From: Acidobacteriaceae bacterium | Lineage (GTDB): Bacteria > Acidobacteriota > Terriglobia > Terriglobales > Acidobacteriaceae | Reading direction: 5' to 3' | Assembly: GCA_003131315.1 (NCBI GenBank) | Contig: PKUV01000044.1 | Span: 1,525-42,765, forward strand | DNA: 41,241 nt | Shown here: positions 16,420 through 28,309 of the stretch, piece after piece | How the letters are laid out: each line of letters begins with the position of its first letter | Numbering within the stretch: position 1 is the first letter of the stretch | Position numbers and translations under genes: made by a program | Notes under the pieces: model-generated | Told to the model about the DNA's origin: nothing | Databases searched by the model: none | The model's input: only the letters and a program-made list of their open reading frames with translations

Positions 16420-17202
16420 ATGAAGGTTGTCGTTCTGTGCGGTGGATTAGGTACCCGTCTCCGGGAAGAGACCGAATTCCGCCCCAAACCGATGGTGGAG
16501 ATCGGGGGCCGTCCCATCCTGTGGCACATCATGAAGATGTACGCCCACTACGGAATGCGCGAGTTCATTCTCTGCCTCGGGTATCGCGGCAACATGATCA
16601 AGGATTACTTCCTGAACTACGAAGCCATGAATAGCGACTTCAGAATCTGCCTCGGCCGCCAATCGCACGTCGAATTCATGGGCGCTCATCAAGAGCAGAA
16701 TTTCGCCGTCACGCTCGCCGACACCGGCCTCGATACCATGACGGGTGGCCGTTTGCAGCGCGTTGCCCGCTATCTCGAGAACGACGACACGTTTCTGCTT
16801 ACCTACGGCGATGGCCTCAGCGACGTCAACATCGGCAGCCTGGTCGACTTTCATCGCAAGCACGGCCGCCTTGCGACCGTCACGTCAGTCCCGCCTATCT
16901 CTCGCTTCGGAGTGCTCGAAACCGACGCCCAGGGCCAGGTCCAGCGCTTCATGGAGAAACCCAAGGCCAATGGCCTGATCAGCGCCGGCTTCTTCGTCTT
17001 TAACCGCCGCGTACTCGATTACCTCGGCGGCCCGGAGTGCATCCTCGAACGTGAGCCTCTAGAGCGGCTGGCGCGTGAAGGTCAACTTATGGCCTATCGC
17101 CATGACGGGTTCTTCTTCGCCATGGACACTTACCGCGAATACCAATACCTGAATGAGCTCTGGGCGAGCGAACAAACCCCCTGGAAAGTGTGGTCGGAAT
17201 GA
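16420..17202 (+). CDS. rfbF: Glucose-1-phosphate cytidylyltransferase
   Basis: The enzyme makes CDP-glucose from CTP and glucose-1-phosphate, the entry to CDP-linked 6-deoxy and 3,6-dideoxy sugars. I choose ATG 16420 because AAGGAA stands eight bases upstream and the product (260 residues) then starts right at the nucleotide-binding strand [19 protein letters not shown]. An upstream in-frame ATG (16348) would add an unsupported tail. The sugar-nucleotide motifs are [32 protein letters not shown] (metal-binding Asp) and [19 protein letters not shown]. The stop overlaps the next start (ATGA), so translation is probably coupled to the dehydratase. It is the first gene of the operon. Confidence 0.95.
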
Positions 17203-18203
17203 GTTTATTTTGGCGAGATCGCTCCGTCTTCGTCACCGGCGGCACAGGGCTGCTCGGATCGTGGCTCGTCAAGCAGCTTATTGACGCCGGCTCGAATGTT
17301 GTTTGCCTGGTGCGCGACTGGGTTCCGCAAAGCGAACTTCTGCGCAGCCGCCGCATTGAGCAAGTCAACACCGTGCGCGGCGATATCATCGATCGTGATC
17401 TCGTCGAGCGCACCCTCGGCGAGTACGAAGTCGAAGTCGTCTTTCATCTGGCGGCCCAGACCATCGTCGGCATTGCTAATCGCAACCCGGTCTCGACCTT
17501 CTCCACCAACATCGAGGGCACCTGGAATTTGCTCGAGGCTTGCCGCCGCTCTCCAAAGGTTTCGTCGATTGTGGTGGCGTCCTCCGATAAGGCCTACGGC
17601 GACCAGGAGCATCTCCCCTACGACGAAACGATGCCTCTGCAAGGCCGTCATCCCTACGATGTCAGCAAGTCGTGCGCCGATCTGATCGCGCAGACCTACG
17701 CCGCCAGCTACAACCTGCCGGTCGCGATCACACGCTGCGGAAATTTCTATGGCGGCGGCGATCTGAACTGGAATCGCGTGGTCCCGGGCTCGATTCGCTC
17801 GGTCATTCGCGGAGAACGGCCAGTCGTGCGCTCAGACGGTAACTTCGTCCGCGACTATTTCTACATCGAAGATGGCGCAGCCGCGTACATGCTGCTCGCC
17901 GAGCGCCTCGCCTCGGATGCCACCCTTCGCGGCCAGGCTTTTAATTTTTCCAATGAAAGCCAGGTCAGCGTGCTCGACATGGTGGAACTGATCCTGCGGA
18001 AGATGAAGTCCTCTCTGCGTCCGGAAGTGCTCAACCAGGCGAGCAACGAAATTCGTCATCAGTTCCTGAGCGCCGAGCGCGCCCGCACCATACTCAACTG
18101 GCAACCGCAGTTCACTCTCGAGTCCGGACTTGATCGCACCCTCGCCTGGTACCGCGAGTTCCTGGGCGCGCCCGCCGCGATGGCCCACGCAGGCAGGGGA
18201 TAA
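17199..18203 (+). CDS. rfbG: CDP-glucose 4,6-dehydratase
   Basis: This short-chain dehydrogenase/reductase converts CDP-glucose to CDP-4-keto-6-deoxyglucose with bound NAD. The 334-residue protein has the nucleotide motif [17 protein letters not shown] and the region [16 protein letters not shown]. The Ser/Thr-containing [18 protein letters not shown] and the active-site pair YDVSKSC (Tyr-xxx-Lys) are typical of the CDP-glucose subgroup. The start ATG 17199 overlaps the stop of the cytidylyltransferase by four bases. The next gene starts 8 bases after its stop. Confidence 0.93.
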
Positions 18204-18210
18204 CTCGACG

Positions 18211-26204: not shown

Positions 26205-27196
26205 AAACCATTAGCGTAGTCACGCCCTGCTTTAACGAGGAAGGTAATGTCCGCGAAGTCTACGAACGCGTGCGTGACCTGATGCTGAACCTCGGGAAAT
26301 ACCGCTACGAGCACATCTTCATCGACAACGCGTCCCGTGACACCACCTTCGCTGTCCTCAGTGAAATCGCCGCCGCCGACTCGAATGTCAAGGTGATCCG
26401 CAACGCGCGCAACTTCGGACACGTCCGCTCCCCCATGCACGCGCTTCTGCAAGCTCGCGGTGACGCGGTCATTGCCCTCATGTCCGATCTGCAGGATCCG
26501 CCTGAGGTTCTCGCGCAACTGCTCGAAGCGTGGGAAAATGGAATTCCCATCGTCATTGCCGTCAAGCATCAAAGCCGCGAAGCCGCGCCGATGTTCATGG
26601 TTCGGAAACTGTTTTATCGGCTGGTCAACCGCCTCGCCGACGACATCGAGACCTACGAAAACTTCACTGGCTTTGGGCTCTATGATCGGCAAGTCATCGA
26701 CCTCGTCCGCCAGTTTGGGGATCCTTACCCTTACTTCCGCGGCATGATCGCCGAAATAGGCCTGCCCCACGCCGAAGTTGAGTATGTACAGCAACGCAGA
26801 AAAAGTGGCAAGTCCAAAAACAATTTCTACACACTTTACGATCTTGCCATGCTCGGTATCACCAAGCTCTCCAAGGTTCCGCTGCGCTTGGTCACGTTCT
26901 CGGGCTTTGCCGGATCCCTGCTCTCCTTGCTCGGAGGCATGGCTTACTTTGCCTACAAACTGCTGTTCTGGCACGAATTCACGCTGGGCATCGCGCCCAT
27001 CGCCATCGGAATGTTCTTTCTGGGATCGCTCCAGCTTCTCTTCATGGGCATCATCGGCGAGTACATCGGGAACATCCACACGCAGGTGCACAACCGTCCG
27101 CTGGTAGTCGAACGCGAAAGATTGAATTTCCAGTACGAGCCCGGCGAACCGCTCCCCCGCAGCGCACTCGCTTCGGGCGCGGCTGCTGGCCGCTAA
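26201..27196 (+). CDS. GT2 glycosyltransferase, polyprenyl-phosphate type, with two membrane helices
   Basis: This 331-residue protein begins with a GT-A domain (ISVVTPCFNEEGNVREVYERV, HIFIDNASRDTTFAVL, NFGHVRSPMHALLQARGDAV). Its metal-binding aspartates lie in MSDLQDPPEVL. Two hydrophobic helices follow near residues 230-255 and 262-290. This layout is that of DPM1/GtrB/ArnC-like enzymes, which load a sugar onto polyprenyl phosphate at the inner membrane face. The start overlaps the stop of the FkbM gene. The likely role is transfer of an operon-made sugar to a lipid carrier, but the donor is unknown. Confidence 0.9.
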   Translation: MKTISVVTPCFNEEGNVREVYERVRDLMLNLGKYRYEHIFIDNASRDTTFAVLSEIAAADSNVKVIRNARNFGHVRSPMHALLQARGDAVIALMSDLQDPPEVLAQLLEAWENGIPIVIAVKHQSREAAPMFMVRKLFYRLVNRLADDIETYENFTGFGLYDRQVIDLVRQFGDPYPYFRGMIAEIGLPHAEVEYVQQRRKSGKSKNNFYTLYDLAMLGITKLSKVPLRLVTFSGFAGSLLSLLGGMAYFAYKLLFWHEFTLGIAPIAIGMFFLGSLQLLFMGIIGEYIGNIHTQVHNRPLVVERERLNFQYEPGEPLPRSALASGAAAGR

Positions 27197-27304
27197 ATCT
27201 TGCATGGTGAAGAAACTCAAGTCTGAGAATGATTGGGTTCGGGGAGTGGGCCTGAGAATTCCGCAATTCAGATCTTCAATGGGGTGCAATCGCCAAGGGA
27301 CCGG

Positions 27305-28309
27305 ATGGGGGAGCGCATGACACCTCGGCTGACCATCGCCATTCCCACTGTCAACCGTGCGGGACTCCTCGGCCGAGCGATCGAGAGCGCACTCGCTCAG
27401 ACCTCCCCCGACATTGAGATCATCGTCTCCGATAATGGGTCAACGGATGAAACCCCTGCTGTTATCGAGCGCTATGCGGGACGGGGACTGCGGACCTTCC
27501 GCCATCCATCGACGATGCCGGCGGCGAAACACGGCCAATTCCTGATCGAACAGGCGCATGGTGAGTTCTTTGTGGGCCTGTCGGACGACGACTTTCTGGA
27601 ACCGGAGTTCGCCGCCGAGGTTCTCGCCTTGTTTGATCGGCACCCGGAATTGTCCTTTGTCCATACCGGATGCGCGGTGCATTACGAAGACTGCCAGGTA
27701 CCGGCCGTCGTCGGCCCTGCCGTGGAAACGGGCGCATCTTTTCTTGCGGCCCATTACGCAGGCAGGCGGGAAGTTTGCTGGTGTGCCTGTGTGACGTGCG
27801 TTCGGGACCTGCTGGAACTCGGCCCGCAACCGGAGGACTGCATCATCGGCGACATGTTTTATTGGACCAAGTTGGCGTTCCGCGGACCCGTCGGCTGCAT
27901 ACCACGCGTGCTGTCGCACTATGTTCTTTTGCGGTCTCAGAACGACAACATGTCTCACGGCACGCCGCCGGTCGTCTGGGCGCGCGAATCACGATTATTG
28001 GCGACCGAGGTGATCGAGGCGTCGCGCCGGGCAGGTGCGGATACCGATTATCTGTCTCGTTTGCAGACTGACTGCCGTCGTCATATTGGCCGCTCGACCG
28101 CCAATCAGTTCGTCTGGACCCGCCTCCGCGGGGCGAGTCGGGCACAAGCCTGGAACTGGATTGCCGGCTGCCTTCCCTATTTATCTTGGAACCCCACTGT
28201 GTTGAGCCGCCTGGTTGCGGCGCTGGTCCTGCCTCGTGAAACCTTGCGGCGTTTATTACTCTCCGGCGCGGCCAGACTCGCCGGGGCGCGTGGCACACGG
28301 GAGACATAG
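27305..28309 (+). CDS. GT2-family glycosyltransferase
   Basis: This glycosyltransferase of about 334 residues has the GT-A core LTIAIPTVNRAGLLGRAIES, IEIIVSDNGSTDETPAVIERY and the metal site GLSDDDFLEPEF. The rest carries a mixed helical C-terminus. ATG 27305 has AAGGGA upstream. ATG 27317, four codons later, has GGGGAG closer to it and is equally possible. The gene stands 108 bases behind the previous one and is the last of the plus-strand sugar operon. It probably adds one residue during assembly of a surface glycan; donor and acceptor are not predictable. The following 267 bases, up to the convergent flippase gene, hold no gene. Confidence 0.85.
   Translation: MGERMTPRLTIAIPTVNRAGLLGRAIESALAQTSPDIEIIVSDNGSTDETPAVIERYAGRGLRTFRHPSTMPAAKHGQFLIEQAHGEFFVGLSDDDFLEPEFAAEVLALFDRHPELSFVHTGCAVHYEDCQVPAVVGPAVETGASFLAAHYAGRREVCWCACVTCVRDLLELGPQPEDCIIGDMFYWTKLAFRGPVGCIPRVLSHYVLLRSQNDNMSHGTPPVVWARESRLLATEVIEASRRAGADTDYLSRLQTDCRRHIGRSTANQFVWTRLRGASRAQAWNWIAGCLPYLSWNPTVLSRLVAALVLPRETLRRLLLSGAARLAGARGTRET

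Follow-up and report, generated by a model that had tools for sequence, protein, structure and literature searches.

A ten-gene Acidobacteriaceae operon pairing a YerE-like carboligase with a NeuB-type synthase and its predicted long-branched 3,6-dideoxyhexose

Core genes of the operon and their conservation

The window analysed here is a stretch of 41,241 bp from the draft genome (6.0 Mb, 194 contigs) of an Acidobacteriaceae bacterium, and the subject of this work is the operon located on contig C139 at positions 16420..28309 of the window, in which genes for a cytidine diphosphate (CDP)-activated sugar are combined with those for a thiamine diphosphate (ThDP) carboligase and a NeuB-type synthase. 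The operon consists of ten genes, all on the + strand and separated by short gaps or overlaps, with their extent and order agreeing with the original prediction made from the sequence alone. The gene calls are mechanical open reading frames combined with BLAST, and family models were applied to representatives only.

The first three genes code for RfbF, an RfbG-like protein and RfbH. RfbF, glucose-1-phosphate cytidylyltransferase (16420..17202, +), scores 341.8 bits against TIGR02623 (cut-off 300.25), and RfbH, CDP-4-keto-6-deoxyglucose 3-dehydrase (18211..19554, +), scores 734 bits against PRK15407 (cut-off 423), its best solved match being CDP-6-deoxy-L-threo-D-glycero-4-hexulose-3-dehydrase (3bcx, 584 bits). 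The RfbG-like protein between them (17202..18203, +; Epimerase, PF01370) has CDP-glucose 4,6-dehydratase (TIGR02622) as its best model, yet its 220.8 bits are below the cut-off of 278.45. Judging by their families, the three enzymes should supply CDP-4-keto-3,6-dideoxyglucose, and the CDP-3,6-dideoxyhexose start of the pathway, as originally predicted, stands, with RfbF and RfbH above the curated cut-offs and RfbG having the right best model. The RfbH context required of a YerE-like carboligase is therefore present in the operon. The next gene (19596..20687, +; PF01370) codes for a short-chain dehydrogenase/reductase (SDR), a putative ketoreductase of the new branch, for which a PDB search at E 1e-20 gave no match; the octose ketoreductase described in PMC4753412 serves as a comparison for this role.

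The ThDP enzyme is encoded at 21918..23741 (+) and possesses the residues E48, GDG 465-467 and N493. In a phmmer search against solved structures its best match is 8rph (384 bits), with 5ahk, which we take to be PpYerE, reaching 241 bits, and a profile built from 16 homologues gives 559 bits for 8rph, 358 for 5ahk and 329 for acetohydroxyacid synthase (AHAS) I (6lpi). The structure 8rph is JanthE of Janthinobacterium (PMC12188165). In three trees, all of them quick searches without bootstrap, the enzyme falls into a clade with JanthE (support 100 in the 52-row tree and 92 in the 90-row tree), separate both from AHAS and from the clade of PpYerE (support 98 in a further tree and 97 in the 52-row tree), membership of which is the mark of a pyruvate-type YerE; the further tree came with a warning that JanthE and PpYerE sit on long branches. 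The YerE-like nature proposed for this protein is thus supported, with JanthE being its nearest solved relative, and the suggested tree comparison with YerE and IlvB gave no grouping with AHAS/IlvB. An assignment to IlvB was dropped: the NCBIfam acetolactate synthase models rank first (338.7 bits), yet all are below cut-off among the best 25 of 54 matches, and the trees set the protein apart from AHAS. The row closest to JanthE itself (59%) is that of locus L305, which carries MhpE and MhpF genes, not NeuB.

The NeuB-type protein, a putative PEP (phosphoenolpyruvate)-condensing synthase of the NeuB-1 subgroup (23814..24950, +), has the Pfam domains PF03102 and SAF, matches 3g8r best among solved structures (228 bits, or 410 bits by profile) and has its closest named relatives in Acidobacteriaceae metagenome-assembled genomes. 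Of the residues that we take to serve PEP and metal binding in NmNeuB from Neisseria meningitidis, 9/9 are kept (E14, K47, Q49, K119, S122, Y176, S203, H205 and H228), whereas those presumably facing the sugar, namely N74, E134, N184, D247, F288 and R314, are replaced by R64, D124, S174, S239, S282 and I308; the comparison chain 4ipi carries A314, with R314 assumed to be the native residue. Such a combination makes PEP aldol chemistry plausible, with something else than an N-acyl sugar as the substrate, and the sugar-side signature of sialic, legionaminic and pseudaminic acid synthases was not found in this protein.

NeuB was detected at E 1e-40 in 23 of the 298 genomes of the order, and the 20 neighbourhoods fetched via NeuB (L029-L048) contain the ThDP gene in 20/20, the SDR gene in 19/20 and RfbH in 17/20 cases; a search with ThDP only recovers the same places. 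A scan of named genomes found 326 NeuB relatives, and the best 80 of these, on which the locus counts are based, come from Acidobacteriota, Pseudomonadota, Cyanobacteriota, Planctomycetota, Myxococcota, Verrucomicrobiota, Bacteroidota and Omnitrophota. The ThDP gene is present at 71/80 of these NeuB-1 loci, and seven of the nine genomes without it at the locus have a ThDP match elsewhere (E 1e-100). SDR and RfbH genes are found at 36 and 35 of the 80 loci, respectively, with RfbH being matched in 24/24 searched genomes drawn from the 45 loci which do not possess it. An HAD phosphatase gene lies between the NeuB and ThDP genes in 7/17 NeuB-1 loci of the order neighbourhoods, and a phosphoglycolate-phosphatase-like HAD is encoded at 32/80 loci, which hints at a phosphorylated substrate. 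Since its core genes also occur together elsewhere, in other genomes, the operon is not a chance cluster, and the adjacency that the original prediction proposed to look for extends well beyond a single genome. A search of a plasmid collection gave one weak match. Besides NeuB-1 and ThDP, the three loci L070, L097 and L108 code for an FGGY kinase, an SDR and an AroB-related cyclase, the last of which has TIGR04425 as its best model but does not reach the cut-off.

The ThDP profile was searched in three samples: the order (298 genomes), the phylum Pseudomonadota, to which genome G298 belongs (398 genomes), and the phylum of the Acidimicrobiales genome G720 (396 genomes), resulting in 79 places in 76 genomes, 26 matches and 14 matches, respectively. 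Neighbourhoods were fetched for 68/79, 25/26 and 14/14 places, giving 107 loci, 88 of which are in the JanthE-like clade and 19 outside it. A keto-acid maker is encoded at 74/88 loci of the clade versus 1/19 outside, the 74 being divided into NeuB-1 (18), NeuB-2 (19), NeuB-cupin (10), HpcH/HpaI aldolase (23) and MhpE (4). All 12 unfetched places have NeuB close by according to their coordinates (11, and that of G298 as L071), and with these included the values are 86/100 versus 1/19 (Fisher p 8e-12, relatedness ignored), the clade of the 12 places being taken from score and partner, with the operon's enzyme as the only one of them in the 90-row tree. PpYerE-like loci of the same order (L220, L224, L225, L227, L313, L314 and L315) showed NeuB, HpcH or MhpE in 0/7 cases.

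The partners differ in their own surroundings. MhpE, 4-hydroxy-2-oxovalerate aldolase, of L298, L303 and L305 scores 370-386 bits (NCBIfam cut-off 286) and is accompanied by MhpF, acetylating acetaldehyde dehydrogenase, which is above the NCBIfam cut-off in L303 and L305 and was recognised by clustering in L298; MhpE beside a ThDP gene fits the published donors of the enzyme ErwE considered below. NeuB-2 with ThDP is a second system in the order (L188-L203, L205, L319 and L320), with a KdsC-family HAD in 13/19 and a GmhA-like isomerase in 10/19 loci, and genome G280, from the same genus as the source genome, has both the NeuB-1 and the NeuB-2 system. NeuB-cupin proteins of about 500 aa with a C-terminal cupin domain, the cupin being scanned in L045 only, belong to L045-L047, L293, L295, L299-L302 and L348. 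HpcH/HpaI genes are located beside ThDP genes at L208-L214, L216-L219, L221-L223, L226, L289-L291, L306, L307, L347, L354 and L355.

Proposed pathway and competing explanations

Quite probably, the end product of the operon is a CDP-activated 3,6-dideoxyhexose that bears a long branch on C4, the product of NeuB being the donor for the ThDP enzyme. Support for this reading comes from the linkage of NeuB-1 and ThDP genes in many phyla, from the keto-acid makers encoded beside carboligases of the JanthE-like clade and from the PEP/metal residues kept in NeuB. The making of this donor, a point absent from the original prediction, is the most likely role of NeuB, and a branch of the caryophyllose/erwiniose kind is the best reading of the data. 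RfbF, RfbG and RfbH would provide the CDP-4-keto-sugar by the known chemistry of their families, and the NeuB-type enzyme would condense PEP with an aldose, possibly phosphorylated, into a 3-deoxy-2-keto acid. The ThDP enzyme would then decarboxylate the keto acid and join the resulting acyl anion to the CDP-sugar at its C4 ketone, after which the SDR would reduce the new ketone, the methyltransferases would decorate the product and a polyprenyl-phosphate glycosyltransferase of family 2 (GT2) would load it for export. The predicted branch is two carbons longer than the aldose and 2'-deoxy, because its CH2 would derive from PEP. A branched and perhaps methylated product, as originally proposed, is thus retained as a reading.

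One position of the donor pocket, V121 of JanthE, was picked by docking in PMC12188165. Its equivalent is Phe in 20/20 rows outside the JanthE clade, PpYerE included, and in 2/2 AHAS, whereas it is Asp in the operon's enzyme (D119) and in 18/18 and 62/62 NeuB-1-linked rows (overlapping sets, the latter being the usable ThDP sequences among the 72 loci L057-L128). The pocket Phe common to YerE and AHAS is thus not present in the operon's enzyme, and a non-Phe residue is found in 87/88 fetched clade loci. The Y297 position is aromatic inside the clade (Y305 in the operon's enzyme) and small or a gap outside. As far as can be judged from sequence, these residues fit an opening of the pocket for long polar donors. 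The sole Phe among the 88 loci is that of L207, at which no keto-acid maker was seen.

A yersiniose-type pathway, in which the ThDP enzyme would add a two-carbon unit from pyruvate with NeuB and the rest serving other sugars, has in its favour the presence of RfbF/G/H and a YerE-family enzyme, but the latter is outside the PpYerE clade (98, 97) and does not have the pocket Phe, and the seven PpYerE-like loci of the same order do without NeuB, HpcH and MhpE, which makes this pathway unlikely. The two-carbon branch suggested in the original prediction is probably wrong, as the enzyme belongs to the clade linked with keto-acid makers and not to that of PpYerE.

Alternatively, NeuB could make a free ulosonic acid destined to be a sugar in its own right within the same glycan, and be merely co-transcribed with the other genes, as its NeuB and SAF architecture would allow. 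As a control, 18 loci of canonical NeuB were sampled from 49 rows scoring at least 278 bits, and a cytidine monophosphate (CMP)-transferase was found in 18/18 and ThDP in 0/18 of them. The ThDP-linked NeuB loci, in contrast, have a CMP-transferase in 0/17 (NeuB-1, order), 1/80 (NeuB-1, named genomes, a set overlapping with the previous one), 0/19 (NeuB-2) and 0/10 (NeuB-cupin) cases, the CMP-transferase profile being seeded from the source genome and then refined with the very loci under search. No CMP-sugar transferase is among the Pfam hits of the operon, and contig C161 of the source genome codes for another NeuB, a canonical one, at a distance of about 5 kb from a CMP-transferase domain. 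Taken with the changed sugar-side residues and the ThDP linkage holding across phyla, this makes the ulosonic acid explanation very unlikely.

Equally improbable is the reverse order of steps, in which the ThDP enzyme would act first and NeuB would then use PEP to lengthen an acetyl branch, or some other aldehyde carried by the CDP-sugar. The order cannot be read from gene proximity alone, but sister loci have MhpE/MhpF and HpcH in place of NeuB, and the donor pocket is not the same at loci that have a partner and at those that have none; both the swaps and the pocket differences are what a donor-making partner would lead one to expect. A NeuB enzyme acting on a ketone would also be, to our knowledge, unprecedented. 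A carbocycle of the bradyrhizose/caryose type was dropped, as the Pfam hits of the operon include no enzyme that would form a ring.

Several observations weigh against the preferred reading, in which NeuB supplies the donor. No keto-acid maker is seen at 14/88 fetched clade loci; six of the 14 have the matching NeuB type elsewhere in the genome (G442, G434, G494, G088, G106 and G155), and none was seen for L206, L207, L215, L292, L304, L318, L342 and L350, of which L206 and L342 are on contigs shorter than 4.5 kb, with aldolases not searched genome-wide. One of the four MhpE matches, that of L349, is only 28% identical, and L358, outside the clade, has an MhpE-like match of 24%. Most HpcH loci add an SDR and an AroB-related cyclase (TIGR04425, below cut-off), which are outside the proposed scheme, and the pocket Asp is not specific to NeuB-1, being shared by 4/23 HpcH-linked and 3/14 partnerless rows. 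There is no HAD phosphatase at the locus of the operon or its congeners, and no assay of a NeuB-linked enzyme of the JanthE clade was found in the literature consulted.

Accessory and neighbouring genes

Pfam detected the Methyltransf_23, FkbM and two GT2 domains in the remaining four proteins. The product of 20680..21921 (+; PF13489) is an S-adenosylmethionine methyltransferase with an N-terminal Cys cluster, called a zinc-finger methyltransferase in the original prediction; its methyltransferase domain was found, while its likeness to sugar 3-C-methyltransferases is weak (5t64, E 1e-8), with the unnamed methyltransferase 3cc8 as its best PDB match, and therefore it may perform either C- or O-methylation. 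The FkbM-type methyltransferase (24972..26204, +; PF05050) carries at its N-terminus a stretch resembling PglD, a Pfam match which at E 0.001 stays below the cut-off. The two were found in only 4/20 and 3/20 order neighbourhoods and in 29/80 and 30/80 NeuB-1 loci, respectively, so they were dropped as core parts and are regarded as accessory.

The first GT2 (26201..27196, +) is of the polyprenyl-phosphate sugar transferase type (sll0501, 169 bits) and is encoded at 65/80 NeuB-1 loci, versus 7/80 for the second, variable one (27317..28309, +; PF00535). Downstream, at 28577-33967 (-), there are genes coding for a Wzx-like flippase and two GT-C proteins (PMT-like, one with TPR) according to Pfam, which are candidates for using a polyprenyl-linked sugar. 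They are followed at 34182-37948 (+) by consecutive genes for an HAD-UbiA fusion, an FAD (flavin adenine dinucleotide)-binding oxidase and an SDR, assigned at the Pfam level, a set which we take to resemble the decaprenylphosphoryl-arabinose (DprE1/DprE2-type) genes.

Comparison with known systems

If the pathway is true, the 2'-deoxy branches of both caryophyllose and erwiniose would have an explanation, and biocatalysis would gain ThDP enzymes for long donors together with enzymes making these donors. As a tentative generalisation, which we hold to be possible but do not favour over its negation, bacteria of many phyla may fuse two monosaccharides by C-C bonding with NeuB and a YerE-like ThDP enzyme into sugars of at least 12 carbons, the partner gene (none, MhpE, HpcH or the NeuB types) predicting the branch length; with NeuB-2 and its GmhA-like isomerase a heptose-derived nine-carbon branch (a C15 sugar) is conceivable. 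A 2025 review counts more than 200 predicted YerE-like enzymes, the vast majority without a known sugar structure (PMC12247030), and if the donor-making gene adjoins that of the carboligase, donors and branch lengths could be read from the neighbourhood. No paper linking a NeuB-type enzyme with a YerE-like carboligase was found among the matches listed from the open-licence PMC literature, which does not prove that there is none, and 'NeuB' has 0 occurrences in PMC12247030.

In the yersiniose A pathway, as in the operon, RfbF/G/H feed a YerE-family carboligase, but the donor is pyruvate, the branch has two carbons and there is no NeuB, so we agree with the original prediction that the NeuB step has no counterpart there. 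Sialic acid- and KDN (2-keto-3-deoxynononic acid)-type pathways share with the operon the NeuB family, the PEP/metal residues and, in its relatives, phosphatase partners, whereas at the operon there is no CMP activation at the locus and the NeuB product would be consumed by the ThDP enzyme. JanthE, for its part, differs from the operon's enzyme in its cofactor motif (CDG versus GDG) and in having V121 where the latter has Asp; it takes long donors, as well as 4-hydroxy-2-oxovalerate with benzaldehyde (PMC12188165).

ErwE from Pectobacterium atrosepticum, which is reported to use 4-hydroxy-2-oxo acids and not pyruvate, performs the same YerE-like coupling to CDP-4-keto-3,6-dideoxyglucose, and its coupling of a hydroxy-2-oxo acid was achieved in vitro with a keto-sugar analogue (PMC12247030). 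The section on ErwE in that paper names no enzyme making the donor; in the operon this would be the PEP-using NeuB-type enzyme, and the branch is probably longer. Erwiniose has ten carbons, that is six plus four, and no gene cluster is given for it in the part of PMC8657720 consulted. MMAR_2332 from Mycobacterium marinum is YerE-like, with a donor preference like that of ErwE (PMC12247030), and the parts of PMC5706390, PMC4403928 and PMC12395582 consulted name no keto-acid maker of the M. marinum cluster. Caryophyllose is a 3,6-dideoxyhexose with a 2'-deoxy 4-C-(1,3,4,5-tetrahydroxyhexyl) branch (PMC5706390) and thus shares both its sugar type and its long 2'-deoxy branch with the predicted product of the operon, and its retrosynthesis would, by analogy, follow the same logic as MhpE/ErwE with a longer aldehyde.

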